Of a DNA stretch of 64,000 nucleotides, positions 26,243 through 46,480 are shown piece after piece. Every line of letters begins with the position of its first letter. Position 1 is the stretch's first letter. The translations under genes and the position numbers were made by a program. Origin of the DNA: Citrus sinensis (Eukaryota > Streptophyta > Magnoliopsida > Sapindales > Rutaceae); assembly GCF_022201045.2 (NCBI RefSeq), contig NC_068562.1, forward strand, positions 9,034,001 through 9,098,000, written 5' to 3'. Below the pieces are notes generated by a model. It did no database searches. It worked only from the letters and a program-made list of their open reading frames with translations, and was not told where the DNA came from.

Positions 26243-26777
26243 TTATAAAATGGGACATTATCATTTTATTATTTAATATTTTTTAACATATCATTTTACC
26301 ATCAAAATTTTTTAATAGTTACTTTTTCTTATTTAATATTTCAGTTTTTATCATTTTACCACTAAATTGTTAAAGTTAAAATTTTCGTTAAAGATTTTTT
26401 TTACATAAATTATAGTAAAAGTTCATTTTATCCCTAATAAACTATATAAGTGTAATTTAACCCTCTAAATTAAAATAAAATACAAAATTAATAAAATACA
26501 AAGAAACAATGCTTTTATCAATTGATTATTTTATCTATCTTCAATAATTAATTGATAGAATTATAAATATTATATCTTGTGAAATTCTTAAAATACTGAA
26601 TCTATTGAAATTATTAAAATACCCCTGTGGCATCAACAAATAATAAAATTAATAATTTAGTGGTAAAATAATAAAAATTGAAACATCAAGTGAGAAGAAA
26701 GAATTGTCAGAAAATTTTGGTGATAAAATGATAGGTCAAAAACTATTAAGGAGTAAAATGATAATATCCTTATAAAA
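26243..26777. mobile_element. Long-TIR MITE, candidate 8-bp TSD
   Basis: 26251-26769 (519 bp) starts TGGGACATTATCATTTTA and, on the reverse complement of its right end, GGATATTATCATTTTA. The inverted similarity extends about 120-150 bp, sharing CATTTTACCA, CAAAATTTT and ATTTTACCACTAAAT. TTATAAAA flanks both sides (26243-26250, 26770-26777). It is AT-rich and non-coding. Confidence 0.7.
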
Positions 26778-28455: not shown

Positions 28456-28630
28456 AATCATAATTATAAAGCCCGCGATCAAGGGAAGTTTTGTCCAGAA
28501 AAGACAGTGATATATCTTAGATGCTAGATAAAAGAAGAAGGATGTCTTGTCTCTGGGGCAAGTTTCGTTTGTCTTGTCTTTAGGGCAAGTTTAGTAGAAA
28601 GTATTTTTTACTTGATATTCCTACTTTGTG

Positions 28631-29863
28631 ATGGCCAACAATGAGAGACAATCGGATTTTAATATTAATAACGGATATGCCAGCATGTCCATTGACGACG
28701 AGGAGGATGATGGGCTGATTATTGCAGGAGAGGACATTGATGATGGGAACAAGGTCAACATCGATTACCGGTGTTGTTTGGTGGGCAGATTTTTGACAGA
28801 TAAGGTGATTAATTTTGCTGCTATGAAAAACACAATGGCTTCTCTTTGGCGGCCAAGAAAGGGTGTCTGTATCAAGGATTTATCGCCTACGCTGTTTTTA
28901 TTTCAATTTTTTCATGAAATTGATATAAATCGAGTACTGGAGACAGGACCGTGGACTTTTGACCAGCACATTCTACTGGTTAAAAGGCTAGATGAGAACG
29001 AACAGCCGCAGAATGTTCCCCTGTTTCTTGCAGATTTCTGGATTCAAATATACAACCTACCCATTGGTTTCATGTCTGAAAAAATTCTGAAGAATATCGG
29101 AGATTATGTTGGCATTTTCTTGGACTCCGATGAGCATAATTTCATGGGAGTTTGGAGAACCTATATGCGCATTCGGGCATCCATTGATGTGAGGAAGCCC
29201 CTTAAGCGTATGATGAAGCTTAAAAAGGAGGGTGGTGAATGGATCTGGATAGACTTTAAATATGAACGATTGAATATTTTCTGTTTCATCTGTGGTTTAC
29301 TGGGGCACACAGAGAAACAATGTCCGAAGTTGTATGATTGTCCGTCGAGTGAGATTGTGAAGGTTTATGGTCACTGGCTGAAAGCGCCGAGCAGGAGGAG
29401 CCTGATGAATTCCGGGGAAAAGTGGCTGAGATCAACGATGCCGGAAGAGAATAATAATGGAAAAGGAAACAGCGAGAAGTTTGCTGGTGCAATGGCGGTT
29501 GATTTGGTTATTAACGCAAATTCTGGAGCTAATATGCGTAACATAAGGGATTATAGTATCAATGCGGGGATTGAGGGGATCAATAAGGAAAGCAACAGCT
29601 TGATAACAATCGGGAGACATTTGCATATCAATGAAAAGTCAACAATGGGAATCATTAATGATTTGAGCGAGGAAAAGATTCTTGACGAGGAACGGGAAGC
29701 TAGACTAATTGTTAATGAGTCAAAGAGAAGAAGATCTCAAGGTGGGCTTCGAAGTTCTGTGGGCTTTGAGGATACGGTAGCTTCTCCGGAGATGGATATT
29801 TCTGTGGAAGGAAAAAATGGGCAATCGGTGGGACTTGTGATCAAGGCCCACCGAGAACAATGA
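28631..29863 (+). CDS. LINE ORF1 (DUF4283 plus zinc knuckle)
   Basis: The 410-residue ORF1 protein is the RNA-binding partner of LINE retrotransposition. The N-terminal half (about residues 40-190, including WRPRKGVCIKDLSPTLFLFQ) matches the DUF4283 type common in plant L1 ORF1. A CCHC zinc knuckle, CFICGLLGHTEKQC, lies near residue 216. I take the ATG at 28631 as the start; an upstream GTG is in frame. The stop overlaps the ORF2 start by four bases (ATGA), which suggests coupled translation. No break seen. Confidence 0.9.
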   Translation: MANNERQSDFNINNGYASMSIDDEEDDGLIIAGEDIDDGNKVNIDYRCCLVGRFLTDKVINFAAMKNTMASLWRPRKGVCIKDLSPTLFLFQFFHEIDINRVLETGPWTFDQHILLVKRLDENEQPQNVPLFLADFWIQIYNLPIGFMSEKILKNIGDYVGIFLDSDEHNFMGVWRTYMRIRASIDVRKPLKRMMKLKKEGGEWIWIDFKYERLNIFCFICGLLGHTEKQCPKLYDCPSSEIVKVYGHWLKAPSRRSLMNSGEKWLRSTMPEENNNGKGNSEKFAGAMAVDLVINANSGANMRNIRDYSINAGIEGINKESNSLITIGRHLHINEKSTMGIINDLSEEKILDEEREARLIVNESKRRRSQGGLRSSVGFEDTVASPEMDISVEGKNGQSVGLVIKAHREQ

Positions 29864-31388
29864 GTGTGTTAAGTTGGAACTGCCGTGGGCTAGGCCACCC
29901 ACAGACAGTTCAAGTCTTGATTGAGTTGGTCAGATGTAAAAAACCTACTATTATTTTTCTCATGGAAACGTTGTGTGGTAAGGATAAATTAGAGAGTGTC
30001 AAGAGGAAGATGGGGTTTAATGGGCTTTTTGTGGTTGATCGCGTGGGCCGTAGTGGGGGGCTTGCTCTTCTTTGGGATGCCAATACAAATGTCTCTTTAT
30101 TGAGTTATGCGAGGAATTTCATTGATGTTCATGTGGAGGTAGCTGGGTTGGGGGATTGGAGGCTAACTGGTTTCTACGGTTTCCCTGAATCGAGTCGTCG
30201 TCGTCAATCTTGGGATTTACTTCGATTTCTTTCTTCTTCCTCAACTACCCCATGGGTTTGTCTTGGGGATTTTAACGATTTATTGGCAGCAAGTGAGAAA
30301 AAATGTAGACTTGAGCATCCTCAGTGGAAATTGCAGGGATTTAAGAAGGCTATTTCTGATAGTGGATTGTTGGATGTTGAGATGGAAGGATATCAATTTA
30401 CTTGGGAGAGATCCCGAGGATCAGTGGATTGGGTGGAAGAGAGGCTGGATAGAGTCCTAGCCTCAGCTGAATGGCTTCATCGTTTTGCTCGGGTTAAAGT
30501 TATGAGCTTGGAGGCCTCTTGTTCTGACCACTTACCTATTTTCATGGATCCGAATCCTATTAATACTACCAGTAGGCATAAGCGATTCCGTTTTGAGAAT
30601 TTGTGGCTGCGAGAACGGGATTGTGTTGAGGTTATTACAAATAGCTGGAACTCTTCTTCGGGTTGTTCCATCCAGCAAAAGATTGCGCGGTGTGGTGCTG
30701 ACTTGTTCCAGTGGGGGGGTCATTTAGCTCGTGATTTTCGTAAGCGTATCTCTGATTGTAAATGTCTTATGGCTCGGTTAAGGGGGCGGCGTGACCAAGG
30801 GAGTGTGGAGGAGTTTGTGGAGGCCAGGAATCGGTATAATGCTCTCCTCCATAGTCATGAAGTCTTCTGGAAGCAGAGAGCAAAATCCCTTTGGCTTAAA
30901 GAGGGAGATAGGAATTCACGGTTTTTTCATGCTACGGCTTCAGCAAGGAAGCGTAGGAACTCTATTGAAAGATTGCGAAATAGACAAGGAATTTGGAGCT
31001 CTAATCAGGAGGAGATTGATGGGATGATTGTGGATTATTTCAGCACATTATTTCAGACTGAAGGTTGCAGTAGTGAGGAGGTTTTAAGATGTGTAGAGAA
31101 GAACATCACCGAGGATCAGAACATGATGCTCTTAGCTCCATTCTCAGCTGTTGAAGTTAAAGATGCCTTGTTTGATATGCATCCGGAAAAATCTCCAGGG
31201 CCTGATGGTATGAATCCTGCCTTTTATAAAAAATTTTGGAATATTGTTGGTGAGGATGTGGTGCAAGCTTGCTTGAACTTTATTAATAGGTGTTCCTTTC
31301 CGGTGGGACTTAATGATACATCTATTATTTTGATTCCGAAAAAGCAGCAGCCTGAGACCTTAGCTGATATGCGGCCCATTGCGCTGTG

Positions 31389-32752
31389 TGTTGTGCAAAT
31401 TTTAATGTACTCGCAAGCGCACGAATCTATTGTAGTATAGATCTATGGTGACGAGTGTCGATCCCACGAGGAGGTGGATTTTAATTGTGTAGAATTAATT
31501 TTGTAAATGGGTTGTTGGATTTATGGTGGAAATGATTTGGTATATGCTAAAACTTAAATTAAAATGGCGAGAATAAATTCTAAAATTGGAATTGCAATGG
31601 CGAGAATAAATTGAAGATAATTCTATTGAAATGACGTACTTGGGTATCTGGATCCGTATCAACATGCATCATGGGCTAAATAATCCGTATTAATGCCAAT
31701 TAAATCATGAGGGGGGAATCCACACCTCATGAACCACGCTCTAATCAATATGGTGCTAAGGGCTTATCGTGCCAAATAATAATAACCTTGTACCAGAGGG
31801 CCGGTGAAACCAAGGCGGTACTAGACAAGATTAGTATTATTTGTCGACGAGAAGTCAAAACATCCACAAAAACTAGAGGGGAAGAGAAAATAAATTTACC
31901 AAATAAAGCCCATGACACATGTTGAGACTTCACCTTCAACCCAAGCTTGAAAGAAAATTAGCCACTCATAATTGAACTAGGGGCAAAATGGGAATTTATT
32001 AAAATACGAAGAAAATACAAGATGGAGAGGGAATTACAGAAAACAGAGTCCAAAAATGGATTCAGAGATATCAAATTAGGGGGGGGAGGCCCCCTTTTTA
32101 TAGATACATGGAGTAAATCATGGCCATCGGATTAAAAACAGTTTGGACGCTCAGGATTGCGCCACGTCATCAGTCAACAGTCCACGTTTGACCACGCGGA
32201 TGAACAGTAACACGGTTTGACCCGACTTTGAACAGTAACGCGGTTTGACCCGGATGAACAGTAACGCGGTTTGGTTGAAAATAATCCTGTGTGATGCATG
32301 CACCGTACGCGAGATTTTTCGTCCACTGATATGCTGCCACGTCACCATCAACAGTACATAAGAATTTTAGTCCAACAGGATCGTGACACCTCATCAGTCA
32401 ATGCCACATCATCGGTCAATGCCACGTCATCATCCGTCTATGTGAACAGTGTCGTGAACAGTAACGTATACAGTACCGTACACGTGAATAGTGCCATTTT
32501 TCCTTTTATGCTCCTCCTAAGGTTTTCGACCGTCCTGAGTTCAAAAGTGATGTCCGTTTTGCCGTCTGATCTCTCCTTTATTGTGAAATGACTATAATGC
32601 CCCTAAAATACATAAAATACTTAATTAAAATAAAACACATGTAATTAAATCACAAGAAGGTTAAATATATAAAAGTAAGGGTTGTTAGTAAGACTTAAAA
32701 TGTAAAATGACGGTTTTCTCCTTTATAAATATGCATTTTCTAATACTCAACA
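31389..32752 (-). repeat. 3' LTR (left copy)
   Basis: 1364 bp, with TG...CA ends (TGTTGTGC...CTCAACA). All checked stretches match the right copy at a constant offset of 11,155 bases. It includes three tandem units around GAACAGTAACGCGGTTTGAC at about 32195-32275. Confidence 0.96.
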
Positions 32753-32760
32753 CACCCCCC
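32753..32760 (-). promoter_or_regulatory. Polypurine tract
   Basis: On the minus strand GGGGGGTG abuts the 3' LTR. This is the expected site for plus-strand DNA priming. The longer motif GGTTGGGGGG recurs inside the element at 34161-34170 and 34584-34593. Confidence 0.7.
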
Positions 32761-32764
32761 AACC

Positions 32765-33656: not shown

Positions 33657-34680
33657 GCTCAAAAGGGTTAACTATGGATATTTAATAAAAGGGATGGCTA
33701 GAAAGGCTCAAACGGATCAAAGATGGCCTTTCCATCGTCTTTTAGAGCTCTGAATAACCTTCCATATCTACTAGTTAGATGAGCCTCCAAATGTAGCAAC
33801 ACACTCTTTTTTCTTTTTTTTTTTATTTTACAAATTTTTTTTTTTTTTTAGGGTTAACTCAAAAGTAATTTAGAGATCGTGTATAAAATAATAAACTACT
33901 AAGCTGTATAAAGAGTGGGCAAAAGGGTTATTCTCCAAGAAAAATAATAGGCTCAAAAACTCACTTGGTACTTATTATGACATGTTCATTCCTTCAAGCA
34001 ACTCATATATGTCTCCGACATCAACATGTAGAGTAGCAAACATAATGTAACATCACTTAAGACCAAAGATAATACAAATACTAAAATTTAAAATTAATCA
34101 TGTCACCCAATGTTAAAACAAATCACACAAAATTTTTTTTTTTTTTTAAACAACATTCTACCCCCCAACCTATTCTAAACATGAAAGGAAAATATGCATG
34201 CAGAAATGTGAAAATGATGCATAAAAACTAATTAGAAAAGTTACACGTAAAATGATAGAAAACGAAAATGATTTTTTTTTTTTTAAAGAAGATGCGTTTC
34301 TAGAGGAACTACACTCCATATTCAGCCATCTTCGACTCAAAAGTTGGAAAATGTATATTTATAGAGGAGAAATTAAAAAGAAGAAAAATAAACATAAACA
34401 CATAATAAAGAAAAAGAAAATGTCTGAATTTTTTTTTTTTTTTATAAACGATGAAGATGCGTTTCTAGAGTCACTACACTCCATATTCAGCCATCTTCAA
34501 CACAAAAAGTTAGCAACAGTTAGTTTCTACAACAAAAATTAGTAAAAACTTAACCAAAATTCTACAATTGTCGACTATTCCCTCCCCCCAACCAGAACGA
34601 AACATTGTCCTCAATGTTTGAAAGGAAAGAAGTAGAGTTTAGAAGACATCACCTGGGTGGTGCAACACAGAAGAAAATAT
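32765..34680 (-). other. Non-coding 3' region of the LTR element
   Basis: No coding sequence recognised. It is rich in T runs, including 34 T at 33619-33652, and holds two extra polypurine-like motifs and a partial duplication (34288-34512). Confidence 0.6.
34288..34512. repeat. Imperfect direct repeat inside the LTR element
   Basis: GAAGATGCGTTTCTAGAG followed by CACTCCATATTCAGCCATCT occurs at about 34288-34346 and 34453-34512, each preceded by a T run. Confidence 0.75.
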
Positions 34681-35349
34681 TTATAGGCGGAGAGTTAAAT
34701 CTAATTTGTACTTCTTACTGCTGCTACTGTTACCATCATTATTTGGACGCTCCAACACGAAGGTCCAGGGGTCTGGCTCCGGTCTATAAGCTTGTAACAG
34801 ATCAAGTAGCTCATTAGCAGTGTGAGCACAAATAAAAAGTTTTTTCACATTAGCGGGAATGAAATAGTTTTTTATTGCATGGTTAAGAAATGCGATAAAG
34901 CCATCATAAAAGTTATTGACATTTAACAAACCGATGGGTTTTTGGTGGATGTGCAGATGGGCCCAAGATGCTAGTGTCATAAGTGCCTCTAGTGTTGCAA
35001 GATCTCCTGGAAGGAAAATAAAAGCATCAGCATGATTAAGCATTTCAGTTATTCTTTCTTGCATACCTGAGACGACTAACTCTTCTCCAGTTGATGAGTC
35101 AGACGAACTGCCCAATGGTTTTAGGACTCTTGGGATGATGCCTAACACTTGACTTCCTCTGATAAAAGCTGCTTCTGAGACCATTTTTGATAACCCTCGG
35201 TTACCTCCTCCATACACCAAATGTAATTTTCTCGCTGCTATGCTTCGACCAAGATCTATAGCTGCCTCAACGAACTCTTTATGTTTGCCATAGGTAAATC
35301 CAGAAAGCACACAAATGTTCTTGAATTGTCTATTGGGAGTAGCTGCCAT
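34681..35349 (-). CDS. LOG-like protein carried by the LTR retrotransposon
   Basis: An intron-less ORF of 222 residues from the ATG at 35349; an in-frame extension to 35460 would give 259. It matches the LONELY GUY fold along its whole length. LOG enzymes release free cytokinin base from cytokinin riboside monophosphate. Matching segments: FKNICVLSGFTYGKHKEF (9-26), LVYGGGNRGLSKMVSEAA (44-61), VLGIIPRVL (68-76), MQERITEM (96-103, with the conserved Arg99), DAFIFLPGDLATLEALMTL (108-126), HQKPIGLLNVNNFYDGF (135-151). The signature PGGxGTxxE is altered to PGDLATLEA, with Ala122 in place of the catalytic glutamate and Asp116/Ala118 in place of glycines. The nucleotide-binding GGG is kept. Enzyme activity is therefore doubtful, but the frame is open. 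It probably derives from a spliced host mRNA, since host LOG genes have introns. Confidence 0.9.
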   Translation of the reverse strand: MAATPNRQFKNICVLSGFTYGKHKEFVEAAIDLGRSIAARKLHLVYGGGNRGLSKMVSEAAFIRGSQVLGIIPRVLKPLGSSSDSSTGEELVVSGMQERITEMLNHADAFIFLPGDLATLEALMTLASWAHLHIHQKPIGLLNVNNFYDGFIAFLNHAIKNYFIPANVKKLFICAHTANELLDLLQAYRPEPDPWTFVLERPNNDGNSSSSKKYKLDLTLRL

Positions 35350-35690
35350 TGTGATACTTCTCGAAAACAATTTGTGAGTGCTTGACAAAAAGGAAATCAC
35401 ATTTAAGAATCTTGGTGACAGTGGATCACAGTTATGTATGAGGTAACATGTCAGTGTCAAATAACGCGTAAAGCACGTGGCTCGCTAGTCAAAAAGGAAA
35501 CAGTAAAAGGGAAAAAGAAAACAGTAATAAGGAAAAAGCAAACAGTAATAAAATTTTTAAAGACAATAATGCACACAATAAAACAATAGTGAAATAAAAT
35601 AACAGTAAAGTAAAAGGATATTTACAGGTAGTTGCGACTGTGGCTCACATCTTCCTCTGGTTTTACGTCCAGAAACGGCTTGAACGCCCT

Positions 35691-36248
35691 CTATGGGTCG
35701 AGGATAGGCTTCCTATCCAGTTTTCTTATAAACTGGCAAACAGGGTCGTTTATAGTCAGATTCCCGAGACTATATCGTGCATGCTCTTTCTGGAATAATG
35801 GCCATAACTGGAGAATCGCTCCTTGCACATATCCACTGGGATGCGTTTCAAGAGACAAAAGGATATCATCCAATGACTCCTTATTCAAGCCATCCCTAAT
35901 GAATTGAATCTTATCTTCCCTGTTATCAGACACCATTCCTAAAGAACATGGGTTTTTATTGCAACTCATTCTGGCACACTTATGACAAGCAACAGAAATT
36001 CTTCGAGCTCGTCGTTTTCTTGCATAATTTCCTTTACCACAACCAGGCATGTATGCAATAAATTTTGGAGGTAACTCACCTGCCGATCGTACTTTAGCCT
36101 CGATTAACCAACGGATGTCAGCAGGTATGTTATTCCTCATGAGTAATCGCATGCGTTCGGACCGAGCTTTATAGATCGTAAGGAGGGCATTCTGAGGAAG
36201 TGAAGGGAATCGCTTGTGAAGTTTCGCTAGAATCTCGTTTTTGTCCAT
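35691..36248 (-). CDS. Basic Cys-rich protein resembling flexivirus nucleic-acid-binding proteins
   Basis: 185 residues. The centre has a glycine/basic run, GCGKGNYARKRRARRIS (69-85), then four cysteines spaced C88-x2-C91-x4-C96-x4-C101, then a segment ending KIQFIRDG (113-120). This order (G-rich turn, Y-A-R-K-R-R basic patch, C4 zinc-binding cluster, hydrophobic-acidic helix) is the layout of the nucleic-acid-binding proteins of carlaviruses and relatives (Pfam family Carla_C4), including the larger versions in citrus-infecting mandariviruses, some of which suppress RNA silencing. The spacing between cysteine pairs is shorter here. The flanking halves (1-65, 125-185) are not recognised. Similarity was judged by eye only. 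The ORF is intact and lies between the 91-residue ORF and the LOG-like ORF. It could instead be an unrelated zinc-binding protein. Confidence 0.6.
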   Translation of the reverse strand: MDKNEILAKLHKRFPSLPQNALLTIYKARSERMRLLMRNNIPADIRWLIEAKVRSAGELPPKFIAYMPGCGKGNYARKRRARRISVACHKCARMSCNKNPCSLGMVSDNREDKIQFIRDGLNKESLDDILLSLETHPSGYVQGAILQLWPLFQKEHARYSLGNLTINDPVCQFIRKLDRKPILDP

Positions 36249-36389
36249 ACCTTCGCCTCAGAATATCAGTTATTATGGGAAACTGAAGTAACCGACTTGA
36301 TTGTCACGGAGTACCGTTATCCGCCACTTCACCGGGGTAATAAACTAAAGCACACAAATAGAAAAACAAATTAAAACACACAAAGAAAA

Positions 36390-36665
36390 TTAAAATCGTC
36401 CTCTTATTGAATTTACCTCAAGCTCCAACTGGATGTCGTAAACACTTCTCTCAATGTCTCTGAGTTGGCTTTCTAAACCCTCAACATAGGCTACTAACTC
36501 TGGTGGTTGTAGAGCCCAAATGCGTTGTGTTTTACAAAATTGAATCTGCCTTTTGAGATGAGTTTTGACACGTTGAAGTGGTTTAAGAATGTTCAGGAGG
36601 AACGGTCTAAGTATGAGACTCATGATTAAAAATGATAAGAGAAAACTTAATGGTGAAATAAACAC
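36390..36665 (-). CDS. Small hydrophobic/coiled ORF downstream of pol
   Basis: 91 residues, not recognised. The N-terminal 35 residues are hydrophobic (FISPLSFLLSFLIMSLILRP) and could anchor in a membrane or act as a signal. The middle is basic, and the C-terminal half (PPELVAYVEGLESQLRDIER) looks like a short coiled coil. Translation could also start at the internal Met (MSLILRP). It lies 85 bases after the pol stop and 141 bases before the Cys-rich ORF. Whether it is expressed is unknown. Confidence 0.45.
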   Translation of the reverse strand: MFISPLSFLLSFLIMSLILRPFLLNILKPLQRVKTHLKRQIQFCKTQRIWALQPPELVAYVEGLESQLRDIERSVYDIQLELEVNSIRGRF

Positions 36666-36750: not shown

Positions 36751-39700
36751 TCAATTCAAATCTGGTGGGTCACTCAAATTTATTTCGGTGTCTTCTCCAC
36801 GTGGTTGGTATTCTAGATATGGCTTTAATCTTTGACCATTAACTTTAAACGTGACACCGTTCTTTGGGTCCTTAATTTCAATTGCCCCATGTGGAAAAAC
36901 AGTATGAACAATAAAGGGACCAGACCAACGAGAGCGTAACTTACCTGGGAATAGGTGCAAGCGAGAATTGAATAAAAGCACTTTCTGACCTGGAGTGAAC
37001 GATTTTCTCATAACGTGCTTGTCATGGAAGACTTTCATTCGTTGCTTGTAAATCTTGGCATTTTCGTATGCATCATTGCGAATTTCTTCAAGTTCTGCCA
37101 GTTGTAATCTTCTTTCTGAGTTGGCTTGCTGCATGTCAAAATTGAATTTCTTGATGGCCCAATACGCACGATGCTCGAGTTCCACAGGTAGGTGGCAAGC
37201 TTTTCCATACACTAGCCTGTAGGGTGACATCCCAATCGGGGTCTTGAAAGCCGTTCTATATGCCCATAAGGCATCATCAAGTCTTAATGACCAATCTTTT
37301 CTGTCCGGCCTCACCGTCTTTTCTAATATGTGCTTTATTTCTCGATTGGAGATCTCAACTTGGCCACTGGTTTGCGGATGATACGGGGTCGCCACTTTGT
37401 GTGTGATTGAATACTTTGTCAAAAGTGCTTTGAATGCTTTGTTACAAAAGTGGGCACCACCATCACTGATTATTGCTCGAGGGAATCCAAAGCGTGAGAC
37501 AATGTTGTTTTTCAAAAATCCTATCACCACCTTGTGATCATTGGTTCTACATGGAATTGCTTCTACCCATTTTGAGACGTAGTCAACACCAACCAATATG
37601 TATTGATGGCCAAAAGAAGGGGGAAAGGGTCCCATGAAGTCGATACCCCATACGTCAAAAATCTCAACCACTAAAATTGGATTTAGTGGCATCATGTTCC
37701 TTCGTGTAATGCTCCCCATTCGTTGACACCTATCACATGAAGAACAAAAAGTGTAAGCGTCTCGAAATAGTGTTGGCCAATAGAAACCACATTGTAAAAC
37801 TTTAGTCGCTGTTTTCTTAGCACTGAAATGGCCTCCACAAGCTTGTTCATGGCAGAATGAAAGGATATTCTGAATTTCATTTTCTGGGACACATCGTCTA
37901 ACAATTTGGTCTGCACAATACTTGAACAAATACGGGTCATCCCAAAAGAAATTCTTTATTTCCGCAAAGAATTTGATCTTGTCTTGCTTAGTCCAATGCT
38001 CTGGAAGTTTACCTGTAACAAGATAATTAACTATATCAGCATACCAAGGTAATACTTCCACACTCATTAATTGTTCATCTGGAAATGACTCATTTAATAT
38101 TAATGGCTCTGTAATTGTGTCAAAGTGAAGACGAGAGAGGTGGTCCGCCACAACATTTTCTGTCCCTTTCTTATCTTTGAATTCCAAGTCAAACTCCTGC
38201 AAAAGTAACACCCAACGAATTAGTCTGGCTTTTGCATCTTTCTTTGTGAGAAGATATTTAAGAGCAGCATGATCTGTGAATATAATTATTTTACAACCAA
38301 TGAGATAAGATCGAAATTTTTCTAATGCAAACACTACTGCTAGCATTTCTTTTTCAGTAGTTGAATAGTTCAACTGTGCATCATTTAATGTCATACTAGC
38401 ATAGTAAATAACATGGGGAATTCGATCAACTCTTTGTCCTAATACTGCTCCTATTGCATAATCAGATGCATCACACATTAGCTCAAATGGTAAGCTCCAG
38501 TTTGGGGCCTGAATGATGGGTGATGATGTCAACAAATGCTTTAATTTTTCAAATGCCACAAGACATGAATTATTAAAGACAAAAGGTGCATCCTTAGCAA
38601 GTAAATTGCATAAGGGTCTAGAAACTTTGCTAAAATCTTTAATGAAACGTCTATAAAAACCAGCATGCCCAAGGAAAGATCTTACTTCTCTGATTGTTTT
38701 AGGTAGAGGAAGATTAGAAATGAGATCCACCTTGGCTTTGTCAACCTCAATACCTTTGCTCGAAATGATGTGACCGAGAACAATACCTTGTTTTACCATA
38801 AAATGGCATTTCTCCCAATTTAAGATCAAGTTCTTCTCGATACATCTCTGCAGAACTAGTGTTAGATGATGTAAACATTGATCAAATGAGTCACCAAAGA
38901 CAGAAAAATCATCCATAAAGACTTCAAGGAATCGTTCAACCATATCAGAAAAAATGCTCAACATGCATCGTTGAAATGTAGCAGGTGCATTACATAATCC
39001 AAATGGCATTCTCCTATATGCAAATGTGCCAAAAGGGCAAGTGAAAGTAGTTTTCTCTTGATCTTTTGGTGCTATGGGAATCTGATTATATCCTGAGTAA
39101 CCATCTAGAAAGCAGTAAAATTCATGGCCTGCTAATCTATCAAGCATTTGATCAATAAATGGTAAAGGAAAATGGTCTTTACGTGTGACAGAATTCAATT
39201 TTCTATAATCAATGCATACACGCCATCCTGTAGTCACTCTAGTGGGTATCAATTCATTATCAGCATTGGTAACTACTGTGACTCCTGACTTTTTGGGGAC
39301 AACTTGTACAGGACTGACCCATGAACTATCAGAAATGGGGTAAATGATACCTGCATCTAATAGCTTAAGGACTTCAGTTCTAACAACTTCTTTCATGTTA
39401 GGATTTAACCGACGTTGCATCTCCCTAGTAGTTTTAGCATTTTCATCAAGGTGAATGTAATGCATGCAGTCTACTGGATTTATACCTTTGATGTCTGCTA
39501 TGGTCCATCCTAATGCTCCTTTGTGCTCTTTTAAAACATCCAACAACTTACCTTTTTGTTCGTCATTGAGGGATGATGAGATGATTACCGGTAGAGTACT
39601 TTCTTCTCCCAAAAATGCATATTCCAATGTGTTGGGTAATGGTTTGAGCTCGAGTTTCGGTGGTGATTCTGATGATGGGATGAGTTTCTTCTCTGATGGT

Positions 39701-42201
39701 GCTAGTTGTTCAACTCTTGACTTCCATTTATTAGTGTCCATAGATGGTGCTGAGTCAAGCAGGGCGTTGACCTCATCAACCGATCTGTCAATATCAAAAT
39801 CAAAACCAAAGTGAGTTAAACATGTTTGTAAAGGATCATCACTAAGGTTTGAAACAAAAGTATCATCAACTAATGCTTCAATTAAATCCACATCAACAAT
39901 TCCATCATCTGCATTGTGAGGTTGTTTGGCAATATTGAAGATGTTCAGCTCCATAGTCATGTTGCCGAAAGACAACTGCATATTTCCAGTCCTGCATTGA
40001 ATGTGAGCATCTGCAGTTGCCAAGAAAGGTCGGCCTAGAATAATGGGGATGTGCTTCCTTGAATCCTGTATTGGTTGAGTGTCAATTACAATGAAATCAA
40101 CAGGAAAATAAAACTTGTCTACCTGGATAAGCACGTCCTCCACAATACCACGAGGTATTTTCGTGGACCGATCTGCAAGCTGTAACACCACTGGAGTTGG
40201 GTGTAATTCTCCCAGTCCAAGTTTCACAAACACAGAGTAAGGCAACAAATTTACACTAGCTCCTAAATCCAACAAAGCATTCTCAATTGTGTGGTTCCCT
40301 ATACTACATGAGATAGTGGGGGAGCCAGGGTCTTTGCATTTTAAAGGAATTTTATGTTGGAGTATAGAACTAACGTTTTCTGTTAAAAATGCCTTCTTTT
40401 GAACATGCATATTTCTCTTTTTAGTACAAAGGTCTTTAAGAAACTTGGCATAAGATGGAACTTGTTTAATAGCATCAAGCAAAGGGATATTAACACTTAC
40501 CTGTTTGAAGATTTCGAGAATCTCACCTGTGGATTTTTCCTTCTTTCCTTTCGCTAACCTTTGAGGAAATGGAGCTTTCGGAACGTATTCTCGTGGGTTG
40601 GTTTCTTCTTTCTCCTCCGGTGATGAGTCTTTAACATTCACAGGTACAATTTGATTTTCTTTGGTTACCGGCATCTCCACTTTGTTGTCGACTTCTTTTC
40701 CTTTTCGCAAGGTCATAACTGCTTTGACCTCTCCATGCTGCTGTGGTGAACTGGTACTTGCTTCATGTACTCCTTTAGGATTAGGCACTGGTTGACTTGG
40801 AAACTTGCCTTTCTCAACAGTCATTGCCAAGGTCTGAACTGAAGAAGCAAGTTGTCCCACCATCTTCTCAAGGCTTGAAACTGATTGGGCTTGTGAGTTG
40901 AAGCCCGCTCTCAACTCATTTCGTAGTCCATCAATGGTGCGGTTCTGTTGCTCAATCGTGGAGTGAGTAACATTCCTAAAATTCTGGAATGCATCCTCCC
41001 ATGGTCTAGGTTGAGAGTGGTTCTGGTTCTGATTGAATGGTCTAAATGGGGGCTGAGAGGCTTGAGGATTTTGAGAAATTTGTTGCATTGGTGGAGCTGG
41101 AGCTGCTGGTCCATTCTGTTGGAATCCTTGAGACCATGAAAAATTGGGGTGATCTCTCCATCCAGGGTTATATGTGTTGGAGTATGGGTTGTAATTTGAT
41201 GGCTTTCTCATTACACCTATGGCATTGGCTTGATCTGAGTATGAGTCATGGTCATGTGGTTCTGTTGATTTAGCAGTCGATAATGATGCTATTTGTCGAG
41301 CAAGACCTTCAACCATCTCCTTGACTTCTTTGATTCCCGAAGTTGACTCACCAATGTGAACCTCATTCACTCCTTTAATCCTTCTAGTATTCCTGAGTGA
41401 TCGACTCCGTTGTTGGGAATTGTCCGCTTGTCGCTGGAAAAACTCCCAAATTTCTGATGCACTTTTTGACATTAGCTCTCCTCCACTTGTTGCCATTAGC
41501 CATTCTTGCACATTTGGTAGTAATCCCTCCAAAAAGTATTGGCATTGATGCCATTTCTCGTACCCATGATGTGGACACTTCAAGAGTAGCCCATTGAATC
41601 GCTCCCATGTTTCGAAAAATTGCTCGTCCTCTCTCTGGGTAAACTCCGAGATTTCCCTGCGAATAGCGTTGGTTTTATGCACTGGGAAATATTTATTCAA
41701 AAATTTCGTTACCATTTGTTCCCATGATGAAATGCTATTAGCAGGTAAAGTATTTAACCATGAACGAGCTCTATCTTTTAAAGAAAATGGGAATAGTCTA
41801 AGTTTAACATCATCATCTGAAAAATTCTCATATTTGAATGTTTGACAAATGGCATGAAAATCATTCAAATGATTATATGGATCCTCATTTTCTAGGCCAT
41901 AAAATGTAGGGAGACAATTTAACACACTAGGTTTTAATTCAAAACTCCTAGCAGCTACATTTGGGTATCTTATGCATGACGTGCTCAAATTAGCTAAGGG
42001 ACTAAAATAGTCCTTAAATGGCCTCTCCTGTGGTGCTTGTAAATCCATTTTATTTTTAACGTGTTTGTGTGTGCGAAGTGTTTTTTCTAATTCAAGGTCT
42101 ATAGGTTCAAGATTAGGTAATAATGACCTACGACCATGCATGCAAAATAAATAAAATAAAAATAAAGATGCAAACAAAACAAAAAATAAAGATGGGAACA
42201 A
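36751..42201 (-). CDS. Gag-pol polyprotein, intact, 1816 codons
   Basis: A single open frame carries all retrotransposon functions. Gag (retrotrans_gag type) surrounds [10 protein letters not shown] near residue 147; no CCHC knuckle was seen. The protease motif [12 protein letters not shown] is near 645. Reverse transcriptase includes [26 protein letters not shown] and the catalytic FMDDFSVFG near 1093. RNase H shows [14 protein letters not shown] and [10 protein letters not shown] near 1309. The integrase zinc domain ([24 protein letters not shown]) starts near 1449; the catalytic core (WGIDFMGPF near 1518, [24 protein letters not shown] near 1605) and a GPF-type C-terminal segment follow. 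The first about 51 residues, before [11 protein letters not shown], are hydrophobic and may be untranslated leader; that Met would be an alternative start. No stop or shift interrupts the frame, so the element may be competent for transposition. Confidence 0.95.
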
Positions 42202-42519
42202 AACAAATAAAAATAAAGAAGAGTGAGAAATTACGATACTAACCTTATTGCGCTATTACAACCTTTCTATAAAAATACACAAAAATAAATACGTGAAAGA
42301 AATTAACTAAAAATTAAATTAATAAGATAAACAAAAAAAAATTACAAAGAAAAATAAATGGAAAATTAAATTACAGAATTTTAAAGAAGAGAAAAAGAAA
42401 AGAAATACTAACCTTTAAATGTAGATTCACTTTTTTTTTTAATAATAAAAAAAAATACAAGAAAACAAATAAAAGAAATTATTCACAAAAATTAATTCTA
42501 TGAATTAAAATTACTTACC

Positions 42520-42537
42520 TCCCCGGCAACGGCGCCA
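42520..42537 (-). promoter_or_regulatory. Primer binding site, tRNA-Asp type
   Basis: The minus-strand sequence TGGCGCCGTTGCCGGGGA begins six bases inside the 5' LTR. It is complementary to the 3' end of plant tRNA-Asp including CCA, the primer used by Athila-type elements. Confidence 0.85.
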
Positions 42538-42543
42538 AAAACT

Positions 42544-43907
42544 TGTTGTGCAAATTTTAATGTACTCGCAAGCGCACGAATCTATTGTAGTATAGATCTA
42601 TGGTGACGAGTGTCGATCCCACGAGGAGGTGGATTTTAATTGTGTAGAATTAATTTTGTAAATGGGTTGTTGGATTTATGGTGGAAATGATTTGGTATAT
42701 GCTAAAACTTAAATTAAAATGGCGAGAATAAATTCTAAAATTGGAATTGCAATGGCGAGAATAAATTGAAGATAATTCTATTGAAATGACGTACTTGGGT
42801 ATCTGGATCCGTATCAACATGCATCATGGGCTAAATAATCCGTATTAATGCCAATTAAATCATGAGGGGGGAATCCACACCTCATGAACCACGCTCTAAT
42901 CAATATGGTGCTAAGGGCTTATCGTGCCAAATAATAATAACCTTGTACCAGAGGGCCGGTGAAACCAAGGCGGTACTAGACAAGATTAGTATTATTTGTC
43001 GACGAGAAGTCAAAACATCCACAAAAACTAGAGGGGAAGAGAAAATAAATTTACCAAATAAAGCCCATGACACATGTTGAGACTTCACCTTCAACCCAAG
43101 CTTGAAAGAAAATTAGCCACTCATAATTGAACTAGGGGCAAAATGGGAATTTATTAAAATACGAAGAAAATACAAGATGGAGAGGGAATTACAGAAAACA
43201 GAGTCCAAAAATGGATTCAGAGATATCAAATTAGGGGGGGGAGGCCCCCTTTTTATAGATACATGGAGTAAATCATGGCCATCGGATTAAAAACAGTTTG
43301 GACGCTCAGGATTGCGCCACGTCATCAGTCAACAGTCCACGTTTGACCACGCGGATGAACAGTAACACGGTTTGACCCGACTTTGAACAGTAACGCGGTT
43401 TGACCCGGATGAACAGTAACGCGGTTTGGTTGAAAATAATCCTGTGTGATGCATGCACCGTACGCGAGATTTTTCGTCCACTGATATGCTGCCACGTCAC
43501 CATCAACAGTACATAAGAATTTTAGTCCAACAGGATCGTGACACCTCATCAGTCAATGCCACATCATCGGTCAATGCCACGTCATCATCCGTCTATGTGA
43601 ACAGTGTCGTGAACAGTAACGTATACAGTACCGTACACGTGAATAGTGCCATTTTTCCTTTTATGCTCCTCCTAAGGTTTTCGACCGTCCTGAGTTCAAA
43701 AGTGATGTCCGTTTTGCCGTCTGATCTCTCCTTTATTGTGAAATGACTATAATGCCCCTAAAATACATAAAATACTTAATTAAAATAAAACACATGTAAT
43801 TAAATCACAAGAAGGTTAAATATATAAAAGTAAGGGTTGTTAGTAAGACTTAAAATGTAAAATGACGGTTTTCTCCTTTATAAATATGCATTTTCTAATA
43901 CTCAACA
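42544..43907 (-). repeat. 5' LTR (right copy)
   Basis: 1364 bp, same length as the left LTR and identical in the stretches compared by eye. It carries the element's promoter. Confidence 0.96.
43251..43257 (-). promoter_or_regulatory. Candidate TATA box in the 5' LTR
   Basis: On the minus strand CTATAAAAAGGGGG is a strong TATA-like motif about 650 bases into the 1364-bp LTR. Transcription towards gag-pol would start about 30 bases downstream. Confidence 0.55.
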
Positions 43908-46480
43908 CTGTGTAATGTTCTGTACAAGATCATATCTAAAATGCTTGCTAATAGAATGAGGGCAGTGCTTGCTTCGGTTGTCTCCGAGGCCCAAAGTGCT
44001 TTTATTCCCGGCAGAGCAATCACCGACAATATAATTATCTCGGTCGAAATCCTCCATTTTTTGAAGAGAAAGAGACAAGGGAAGCATGGCTGTGCGGCCC
44101 TTAAAATAGATATGTCTAAGGCATATGACCGTATCGAGTGGAAGTTTCTCCAAGCTATAATGCTAAAAATGGGGTTTGCGGAAAATGGGTGGATTTGATA
44201 ATGCTTTGTGTTTCAACAGCGCAATACAACGTGCTTCGTAATGGTAAGGAAGTGGGGCCGATTATTCCTAGCAGAGGACTACGCCAAGGTGATCCGTTAT
44301 CCTCGTACTTGTTCATTTTGTGTGCTGAAGGGTTGAGCTCCCTGATTCGAGTAAATGAAAAGGCTGGTTTGATTCATGGTGTGAAGGTGGCTAGAAGTGC
44401 TCCAATGGTGTCCCATTTATTTTTTGCCGATGATTCCTTTCTGTTTTTCCGAGCAAACCAGCAGGAAGCAGTGCTAATGCGGAATATTCTAGCTTCATAT
44501 AGTCGTGCTTCTGGGCAAAAAGTAAATTTCAATAAATCTTCGATTTCGTTTAGTGCTAATGTGCTTGCTGATGTTGCTAGTCAGGTATGTGGGGTGTTGG
44601 CTGTTAATGTTACCTCTGATCATGGGGCTTACCTGGGACTTCCTTCCTGCATTGGACGAAATAAGAGGGCCGTATTTCAGAGCATTCGAGACAAAGTCTG
44701 GCAAAAGCTGCAAGTATGGAATATAAGGCTGTTATCTAGAGCCGGAAAAGAAGTTTTGCTGAAAACAGTGGCTCAAGCAATGCCTAACTATGTGATGAAT
44801 GTCTACCTTCTTCCGCTTGATCTTTGCAAGGAGCTTAAGATTATGATGAATTCGTTTTGGTGGGGTGGTAAGCGTAATGGTGGGGGTGGAATTAATTGGA
44901 TGAAGTGGGAACGCATGTGCAAACCGAAGGATTTTGGGGGGTTGGGTTTTAAGCAAATTCATATTTTCAATGTTGCAATGTTGGGTAAACAGGTGTGGAA
45001 ACTGTTGACAAGCCCAACTTCTTTTGTTGCAAAGGTGCTTGAGGCTCGTTATTTCCCTCGATCCTCAATCTTTGATGCTAATTTGGGTTTTAACCCGAGC
45101 TTTATTTGGCGATCCATAATGGCTGCGAAGGAAGTGGTTATACGGGGTAGCAGAATTCAGATTGGAAGCGGGAAGCAGGTTCTTATTGGGAAAGATTCGT
45201 GGCTCCCTGACCTTGAGGATGGATTTACTACTTCTGAGCTGCCTAAGGAAATTGTGATGGCTCCAGTGTGCAGCTTGATGGTGGCTGATGAGCGTCGGTG
45301 GGATTTTGACGTTGTCACTGATTTATTTAATACCAGGGATAGAGACCTCATTCTGAAAATTCCCCTTAGTGTTCGTAGGGATCGTGATATGTGGCACTGG
45401 TTAGCTGATCCAGGGGGTGTTTTTTCAGTGCGTAGCTGTTATAAGCTGATGACTTATGATGCTAATACCTCTGCTTTGAGTTTCTGGCGACGGTTGTGGA
45501 AATTGGAGGTGCCGAGTAAAGTGAAGAATTTCCTTTGGCGTGCTGCTACGAATGTGCTACCTACGTATGATAATCTACTTCGGCGTAGAGTTCAGGTACT
45601 GCCTCTTTACGTTGTATGTAACACTTGTAATGAATCTATAATTCATATTTTGGTGGACTGTGGTTTTGCCAAAGCTTGCTGGATTGCTTCTCCGATAGGA
45701 TATATTGGTCACATTTCTTCCTTTATGGAGTGGCTTGGCATTATATTTAACCGTTGTAGTAAAGAGGAGTGTGAGCTTACAGCTATGGTTTGCTGGAGGA
45801 TTTGGGTTCAGCGTAATGATAAAGTTTGGAACAGCAGGTGTGGTCGGGTTTATCAAACTCTTAACTCAGCTGGTTACCTTCTTCACCAGTGGCAATATTG
45901 GAGGAAACAGATTCTGTTTGATGATGCATTTGGGAGTAGTTTGAGGCATGGGGCTGTGTGTTGGGAAAGACCTCATGATGGATGGTTTAAGTGTAACGTT
46001 GATGCTGCTGTGTTTTCATCTCAGTCGAAGATTAGCTTTGGTTGTGTGGTTCGCAACTTTGAGGGCAAGTTCTTGGCTGCAAAATGTGACTGTTTTGCTG
46101 GAAGTTTTGGGGCTAGAGAAGCAGAGGCGCTTGGTGTTAGAGAAGCTCTTAGCTGGTTGAAATGTTTGCACCTTCCTCGTGTGATTATTGAAGTGGACTG
46201 TCTGCAGGTTTTTAAGGCTTTAACTGAGAATCTTTCAAGTCCCAATGGCTTTGGCCTCATCATTGAGGAATGCCGTTTCTTAGCTCAGGAATTAGGAGAA
46301 GTGCAATTCTCTTTTGTCCGTCGATCTACGAACGTTGCTGCCCATAGAGTCGCTAGGGTGGGGGGTTCTTTGTCAGGTCCTAGCGAGTGGAGTGCTGTTC
46401 CACCTTGTTGGTTATTGAACAATTTGTAATCGAGTTTATTTAATGAATTTATCTTCAAAAAAAAAAATCATAATTATAAA

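Follow-up and report, generated by a model that had tools for sequence, protein, structure and literature searches.

Why should an LTR retrotransposon of Citrus sinensis carry a relative of LOG, the family of cytokinin-activating enzymes, and can the protein still make hormone? The question arises from a 64 000-nucleotide stretch of the C. sinensis genome (the window; contig C7, 9034001-9098000), in which a first-pass annotation had noticed an uninterrupted, intron-less LOG homologue on the coding strand of an intact element, between pol and the 3' LTR. It had explained this gene as a spliced host mRNA that was captured during reverse transcription and could change cell division or hormone-enzyme dosage in the host.

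The presence of such a domain was already on record. A YgdH (LOG) domain was described in the LTR-element consensus sequences of C. sinensis and C. clementina (Alvarado-Marchena 2022, PMC9289625, citing Steinbauerova 2011) and, under a looser filter, in LTR elements of P. trichocarpa. These Citrus and Populus elements very likely belong to the same Gypsy-type group as the element analysed here, found in C. sinensis and C. clementina; the available part of that account is silent on active-site loss, selection, the C-terminal tail and a viral-type NABP ORF. The LOG domain in Citrus elements is thus the known part, and the pseudoenzyme with its viral-type partner is the new one: selection across three subfamilies, loss of the active site, a conserved tail and a selected NABP-like ORF upstream are added to the published finding.

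The element and its two accessory reading frames

The paired LTRs, target-site duplication, primer-binding site, polypurine tract and full gag-pol ORF (Table 1) mark the element as an intact LTR retrotransposon, as had been proposed. Its two LTRs are without mismatch, and the insertion is therefore recent: the element is a young, intact Ty3/gypsy LTR element of C. sinensis. It is nested in a LINE, whose coding stretches lie on either side (28628-31440 and 44138-46429). The primer-binding site (TGGCGCCGTTGCCGGGGA, 42520..42537) is probably of the tRNA-Asp type, which is characteristic of Athila, and from this site and the lay-out we tentatively call the element Athila-type. Elsewhere in the window, inverted-repeat arms of 132 nt (26253-26384 and 26638-26769; 80% complementary, 253 nt between them) possibly form a miniature element.

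Table 1. Features of the retrotransposon, in window coordinates.
Feature	Position	Strand	Remark
5' LTR, 1364 bp	42544..43907	-	no mismatch to other LTR
Primer-binding site TGGCGCCGTTGCCGGGGA	42520..42537	-	sequence
AG/GTAAGT consensus-like 5' splice donor, putative	42513..42520	-	overlaps last base of primer-binding site
gag-pol polyprotein ORF, 1816 aa from first TTG	36751..42201	-	gag, protease, RT, RNase H and integrase domains
Acceptor-like site, first exon base 36344	36345..36367	-	96 nt before ATG of 185-aa ORF
185-aa ORF, basic patch and Cys-x2-Cys-x4-Cys cluster	35691..36248	-	homologue of carlavirus/mandarivirus nucleic-acid-binding cysteine-rich proteins
Acceptor-like site, first exon base 35484	35485..35507	-	135 nt before LOG ATG
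LOG-like ORF, 222 aa, ATG at 35349	34681..35349	-	no stop, no intron; PF03641
Degenerate active-site motif PGDLATLEA, residues 114-122	34984..35010	-	canonical PGGxGTxxE; motif comparison
Tail KKYKLDLTLRL, residues 212-222	34684..34716	-	basic patch and EAR-like LxLxL; conserved tail motif
Polypurine tract GGTTGGGGGGTG	32753..32764	-	sequence
3' LTR, 1364 bp	31389..32752	-	identical to 5' LTR
Target-site duplication CTGTG	left copy 31384..31388, right copy 43908-43912	.	flanking sequence

The LOG-like ORF (34681-35349) lies on the gag-pol strand, between pol and the 3' LTR. Its family was confirmed by an HMM search, in which it matched Pfam PF03641 with 98.8 bits (E=3.7e-28), above the cut-off of 27; its best solved relative was AtLOG3 (2a33, E=3.7e-45). 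An AlphaFold model made with 48 close variants reached a pLDDT of only 37, too low to be used. When the genome was searched with PF03641, the long open frames listed were of the element type (best 150 of 1560 scored). No relative of the LOG ORF from outside Citrus was present among the named protein matches listed.

The 185-aa ORF upstream of LOG was identified through its relatives. The window copy itself fell short of the Pfam cut-offs (only E=0.011 and 0.046). Among 62 aligned sequences, 49 matched Viral_NABP and 46 matched Carla_C4 at E<=1e-3, and P0134, P0137 and P0172 exceeded the Pfam cut-offs. The matches listed included NABP-like ORFs named from Xanthoceras, Acer and Populus. The model of the protein was weak (pLDDT 63). 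This basic protein shares with the carlavirus and mandarivirus CRPs (PF01623, PF05515; CVB p12 and CYVCV CRP) a Cys cluster that comes after a basic patch, and differs from them in being encoded by an LTR retroelement and in the spacing of its Cys residues. According to the available excerpts, p12 of Chrysanthemum virus B is a transcriptional activator in the nucleus and a silencing suppressor in the cytoplasm (PMC7588395), and the CRP of CYVCV, a virus of citrus, suppresses silencing (PMC12172455). Among the papers listed by literature searches, none reported an LTR element that encodes a protein of carlavirus type, and a scan of viral contigs with the NABP and LOG alignments gave no confirmed relative. 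Four Citrus gene models (P0053, P0073, P0082 and P0125) join NABP-like and LOG-like ORFs in one predicted protein; these fusions are probably annotation artefacts.

Sites that may serve splicing were found next to the primer-binding site and ahead of each accessory ORF. The sequence AGGTAAGT occurs four times on this strand of the element and never on the other, one occurrence being the donor-like site 42513..42520. Ranked by pyrimidine content among 283 YAG sites, the acceptor-like site before the 185-aa ORF (36345..36367) took place 10 (tied at 15/20) and that before LOG (35485..35507) place 5 (tied at 16/20). Together these sites suggest that retrovirus-like spliced mRNAs may be made. The LOG acceptor-like site was not at the same place in the six subfamily II and two subfamily III loci read, which makes the case for splicing weak; a conserved splice acceptor ahead of LOG failed as a candidate in both subfamilies.

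Two further observations concern this part of the element. A 77-aa ORF (36390-36623, minus strand, MSLILRPF...NSIRGRF) lies between pol and the 185-aa ORF; a donor-like GTAAAT is found close to where this ORF ends, and a little further on follows the acceptor-like site 36344. In the 1.9-kb stretch from LOG to the 3' LTR, a 71-nt motif occurs twice (34272-34342 and 34437-34507, 85% identity), both copies adjoining poly-T/A runs.

Active site, tail and origin of the LOG-like protein

In the element protein, the second Gly of the motif PGGxGTxxE is replaced by Asp, the next Gly by Ala and the catalytic Glu by Ala. The resulting GDLAT(L/F)EA was present in the examined copies of all three subfamilies of the element (described below), subfamily III having PGDLATFEA, with single copies that differ at the first residues. 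Glu at position 9 was found in none of the 107 cluster representatives, out of 120, in which the motif was readable. Throughout the genome, the GDLAT(L/F)EA pattern gave 938 matches (484+454; reversed control 0), a number that takes in intact as well as broken copies and misses variants. The canonical pattern gave nine (control 0), all in intron-split host LOG genes, which were located by this motif pattern only. At each of these nine loci (L111-L119) the LOG exons are in separate pieces, and reading L111 by eye showed the PGG codons to be interrupted by an intron; host LOG genes do have introns, as had been assumed. The catalytic Arg of MHxRK is kept in 10 of 10 sequences (MQER; KQER in L110), and the Lys after it is Ile in the element proteins and Val in L108.

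The weight of these changes can be judged from characterized enzymes. Arg99 and Glu122 are the proposed catalytic residues of CgLOG, Glu122 being the one that closes PGGxGTxxE; with Ala in place of the crucial residues, hardly any activity was left, Ser19 being the exception (PMC4979012, available excerpt). The PDB entries 5zbj and 5zbk differ at the same Glu (TLEE versus TLEA) in sequences that are otherwise alike, and 5zbk is probably an engineered mutant. Because the Glu and the motif Gly residues are replaced in the examined copies of three subfamilies, the LOG-like ORF is very probably not a cytokinin-activating enzyme, and the proposal that the element adds to cytokinin activation or hormone-enzyme dosage found no support. 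An active host-like LOG was rejected on the same ground. Changed catalysis is conceivable, as MQER still has its Arg and the active-site motif its second-last Glu. Compared with the plant LOG phosphoribohydrolases (PF03641), the element protein keeps homology over the whole domain and the MxxR arginine, and it differs in having GDLAT(L/F)EA for PGGxGTxxE, an added basic LxLxL tail, no introns and only 38-47% identity to the plant LOGs compared.

The tail combines a basic patch with LxLxL and so resembles the plant EAR co-repressor motif, which is defined as LxLxL. In the window copy the motif reads LDLTLRL, and across the subfamilies the tail has the nearly fixed form KKxxLDLTLRL. When 10 sequences were aligned, 9 of 12 columns were invariant in the tail and 7 of 24 in the linker that precedes it (tail versus linker, Fisher p=0.014); of the 188 core columns, 108 were invariant. 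A pattern recognised the tail in 105 of 139 representatives, and 96 of these 105 kept LxLxL. In the two samples of copies defined below (sets A+B), residues 211-222 showed three replacements and one silent change among singletons, and no replacement and one silent change among shared changes. At this Leu content, LxLxL would occur by chance somewhere in the last 11 residues with a probability of about 1.4%; as the motif was seen before being tested, its conservation is a better argument than this figure. The host LOG L117, the one whose last exon could be followed to the stop, ends without this tail.

As to origin, the LOG-like protein was 38-47% identical to six partial host LOGs, AtLOG3 and AtLOG8, 39-40% to PaLOG of Pseudomonas and 32-33% to YvdD, and the six host LOGs were 70-90% identical to AtLOG3. 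A small tree was built in which partial proteins stood for six of the nine host loci with the canonical motif, all except L114, L118 and L119. In it the element sequences formed a long branch, which joined the two bacterial sequences and not the plant LOGs (support 85). This grouping may be long-branch attraction. Given the low identity to host LOGs and the position in the tree, an old capture with fast change is viable, and another intron-less donor would fit the sequences as well. Capture of a spliced host mRNA agrees with the lack of introns and is one possible origin.

Copies, subfamilies and selection

Copies of both ORFs were collected from the 299.7-Mb genome. Of the 150 LOG-like copies scored (the best of 2113 first-look candidates), 149 were without stop, in a list sorted by similarity to the window protein and hence favouring intact copies; hundreds of copies of the element do carry the LOG ORF, a point on which the first-pass annotation had asked for a check. 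For the 185-aa ORF, 149 of 150 were also without stop (best 150 of 1884, a ranking that again favours intact copies). Four pairs of copies are about 11.1-11.2 kb apart (C8:14243633/14254800, C3:30623837/30634961, C2:2333060/2344205 and C1:7550644/7561788); this is close to the LTR-to-LTR spacing in the window (11155), so they are probably tandem elements with a common LTR.

Subfamilies II and III were found by a genome query with the divergent relative P0098, the grouping being our own. The NABP-like ORF adjoins LOG in subfamily I and in six of the eight loci of subfamily II, and for subfamily III the same holds in both loci that were long enough; in the stretches fetched for the eight subfamily II loci, no NABP match was present beside LOG in L105 and L106. 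In L105 (C8:12775031), what seems to be the end of a related LTR lies just upstream of the LOG ORF. By simple Nei-Gojobori counts, from which all dN/dS values given here derive, dN/dS between subfamilies I, II and III was 0.16-0.26 for LOG, at dS 0.46-0.81, with subfamily II represented by five of its six stop-free fetched loci (L106 was omitted arbitrarily) and subfamily III by four loci. For the 185-aa ORF it was 0.19-0.37, with two of eight loci in subfamily II (L100 and L101, which have stops in LOG and none in NABP) and two in subfamily III.

Within subfamily I, two samples with opposite biases were compared. Set A (L011-L050) comprised 40 of the 149 other LOG copies, picked by eye along the ranking, and favours intact LOG. 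The 40 copies of set B (L059-L098) were taken from among the higher-ranking of the 150 NABP matches, copies of the LOG top 150 being left out by eye; the set is biased against LOG and towards intact NABP. Copies covering less than 80% of an ORF were dropped, leaving 40/40 (A) and 38/40 (B) for LOG, and 38/40 (A) and 40/40 (B) for NABP. Among changes common to at least two copies, dN/dS for LOG was 0.16 in sets A+B (78 copies) and 0.21 in set B; among singletons, which include decay after insertion, it was 0.39 (A+B), 0.41 (set B) and 0.18 (set A, chosen by LOG). The NABP ORF gave 0.19 for shared and 0.68 for singleton changes in set A, picked without regard to NABP, and 0.15 and 0.12 in set B, as expected from its choice by NABP. 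The low ratios between subfamilies and among shared changes imply that selection kept the LOG ORF while the elements were active: the LOG-like ORF is maintained by long-term purifying selection, and the neutral decay that would have spoken against the first-pass annotation was not seen.

In set B, LOG adjoined NABP in 39 of 40 copies and was open over the matched length in 32; the defects were a one-base gap (three copies), a stop (three), a split (one) and the lack of LOG (one). The last copy, at C6:9479472 (L058/L060), is the sole one of the 40 without LOG in the stretch read. It breaks at the same point between the accessory ORFs as L022 (C8:17831157), with LTR-like sequence near.

Possible roles of the accessory genes

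We consider it about 60% probable that the LOG-like ORF is an old, element-owned pseudoenzyme, which would have lost the hydrolysis of cytokinin riboside-monophosphates, would be selected for binding and would be joined with the NABP-like ORF, between pol and the 3' LTR, in an accessory module comparable to retroviral env or accessory genes. The data suggest that the element uses a LOG relative and an NABP-like gene to manage its host, not to make hormone.

Four other explanations were weighed against it. The first is that the element took up a working LOG enzyme by way of a spliced host mRNA and raises active cytokinin. This would be in line with the homology across the whole LOG domain, with an intron-less ORF beside host loci split into exons, and with selection on the ORF; it is very unlikely, since the catalytic Glu and the motif Gly residues are gone in the examined copies of all three subfamilies, against the residues needed in CgLOG (PMC4979012, excerpt), and no close host donor exists among the six partial host LOGs (38-47%). 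That the ORF is a functionless passenger spread by recent amplification is scarcely credible and was rejected: the listed copies are indeed young and near-identical (97-100%), but dN/dS values of 0.16-0.26 at dS up to 0.81 across three subfamilies contradict it, and 32 of 40 NABP-chosen copies outside the LOG top 150 keep LOG open over the matched length.

The remaining two accept the loss of the active site. Mixed dimers between the pseudoenzyme and host LOGs might lower or retarget cytokinin activation; the stretch from WAxLxIH to GLLNVNNFYD stays near that of host LOGs though PGGxGTxxE is lost, and LOGs are dimers whose active-site pocket is formed on dimerization (PMC4979012, excerpt), but hetero-dimers are doubtful at about 40% identity and interference alone leaves the tail unexplained, so we regard dominant interference as improbable. 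The retained fold homology with a lost catalytic residue would also agree with a SLOG-type protein that would blunt an immune signal of the plant, itself derived from a nucleotide, by binding it. A Moco carrier protein shares the LOG fold. It binds a nucleotide form of its cofactor (PMC7470044, excerpt). For the element protein such binding is quite improbable, as Gly to Asp and Gly to Ala damage the phosphate-binding motif and make phosphate binding doubtful.

If the ORF does encode a selected pseudoenzyme, both accessory proteins could be translated from spliced sub-genomic mRNAs, with the donor by the primer-binding site and an acceptor before each ORF. The 185-aa protein would then bind RNA, suppress silencing or reprogram transcription, in the manner of the CRPs of carlaviruses and mandariviruses. 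The LOG-like protein would keep its fold, and its basic LxLxL tail would take it to the nucleus and recruit a TOPLESS-type co-repressor; alternatively, it would pair with host LOG subunits. Co-repressor recruitment and interference with host LOG are the leading, putative mechanisms. We infer a protein without catalysis, and likewise the splicing, the nuclear location, the partner and the benefit to the element. The complete scheme has a retrovirus-like two-gene module, expressed by splicing, in which a silencing suppressor of RNA-virus type stands beside a LOG pseudoenzyme, the latter either recruiting TOPLESS or poisoning host LOG; it is tentative and, taken as a whole, rather unlikely.

Comparable cases are known. 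Extra ORFs are common in plant retrotransposons and most often have no known domain (PMC9289625, excerpt). An orchid Gypsy element with an AlkB demethylase, described in the same source, also carries an accessory ORF of a type found in RNA viruses; the orchid enzyme is active in vitro, whereas the active site of the Citrus LOG-like protein has been lost. Athila and other elements have additional ORFs in the same position and sense as here, from pol to the 3' LTR (PMC7264820, excerpt); in the present element LOG and viral NABP ancestry were identified.

The name cytokinin riboside 5'-monophosphate phosphoribohydrolase has been given to many Citrus proteins that are element products and probably not hormone enzymes. 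Here the fold is known, the active site is lost, the interaction-type tail is conserved, a selection history has been measured and the neighbour is a homologue of a viral pathogenicity factor, which makes the effects of accessory genes on the host testable with single proteins. If the two-gene module were true, a plant transposon would disarm silencing and rewire host transcription or cytokinin signalling.
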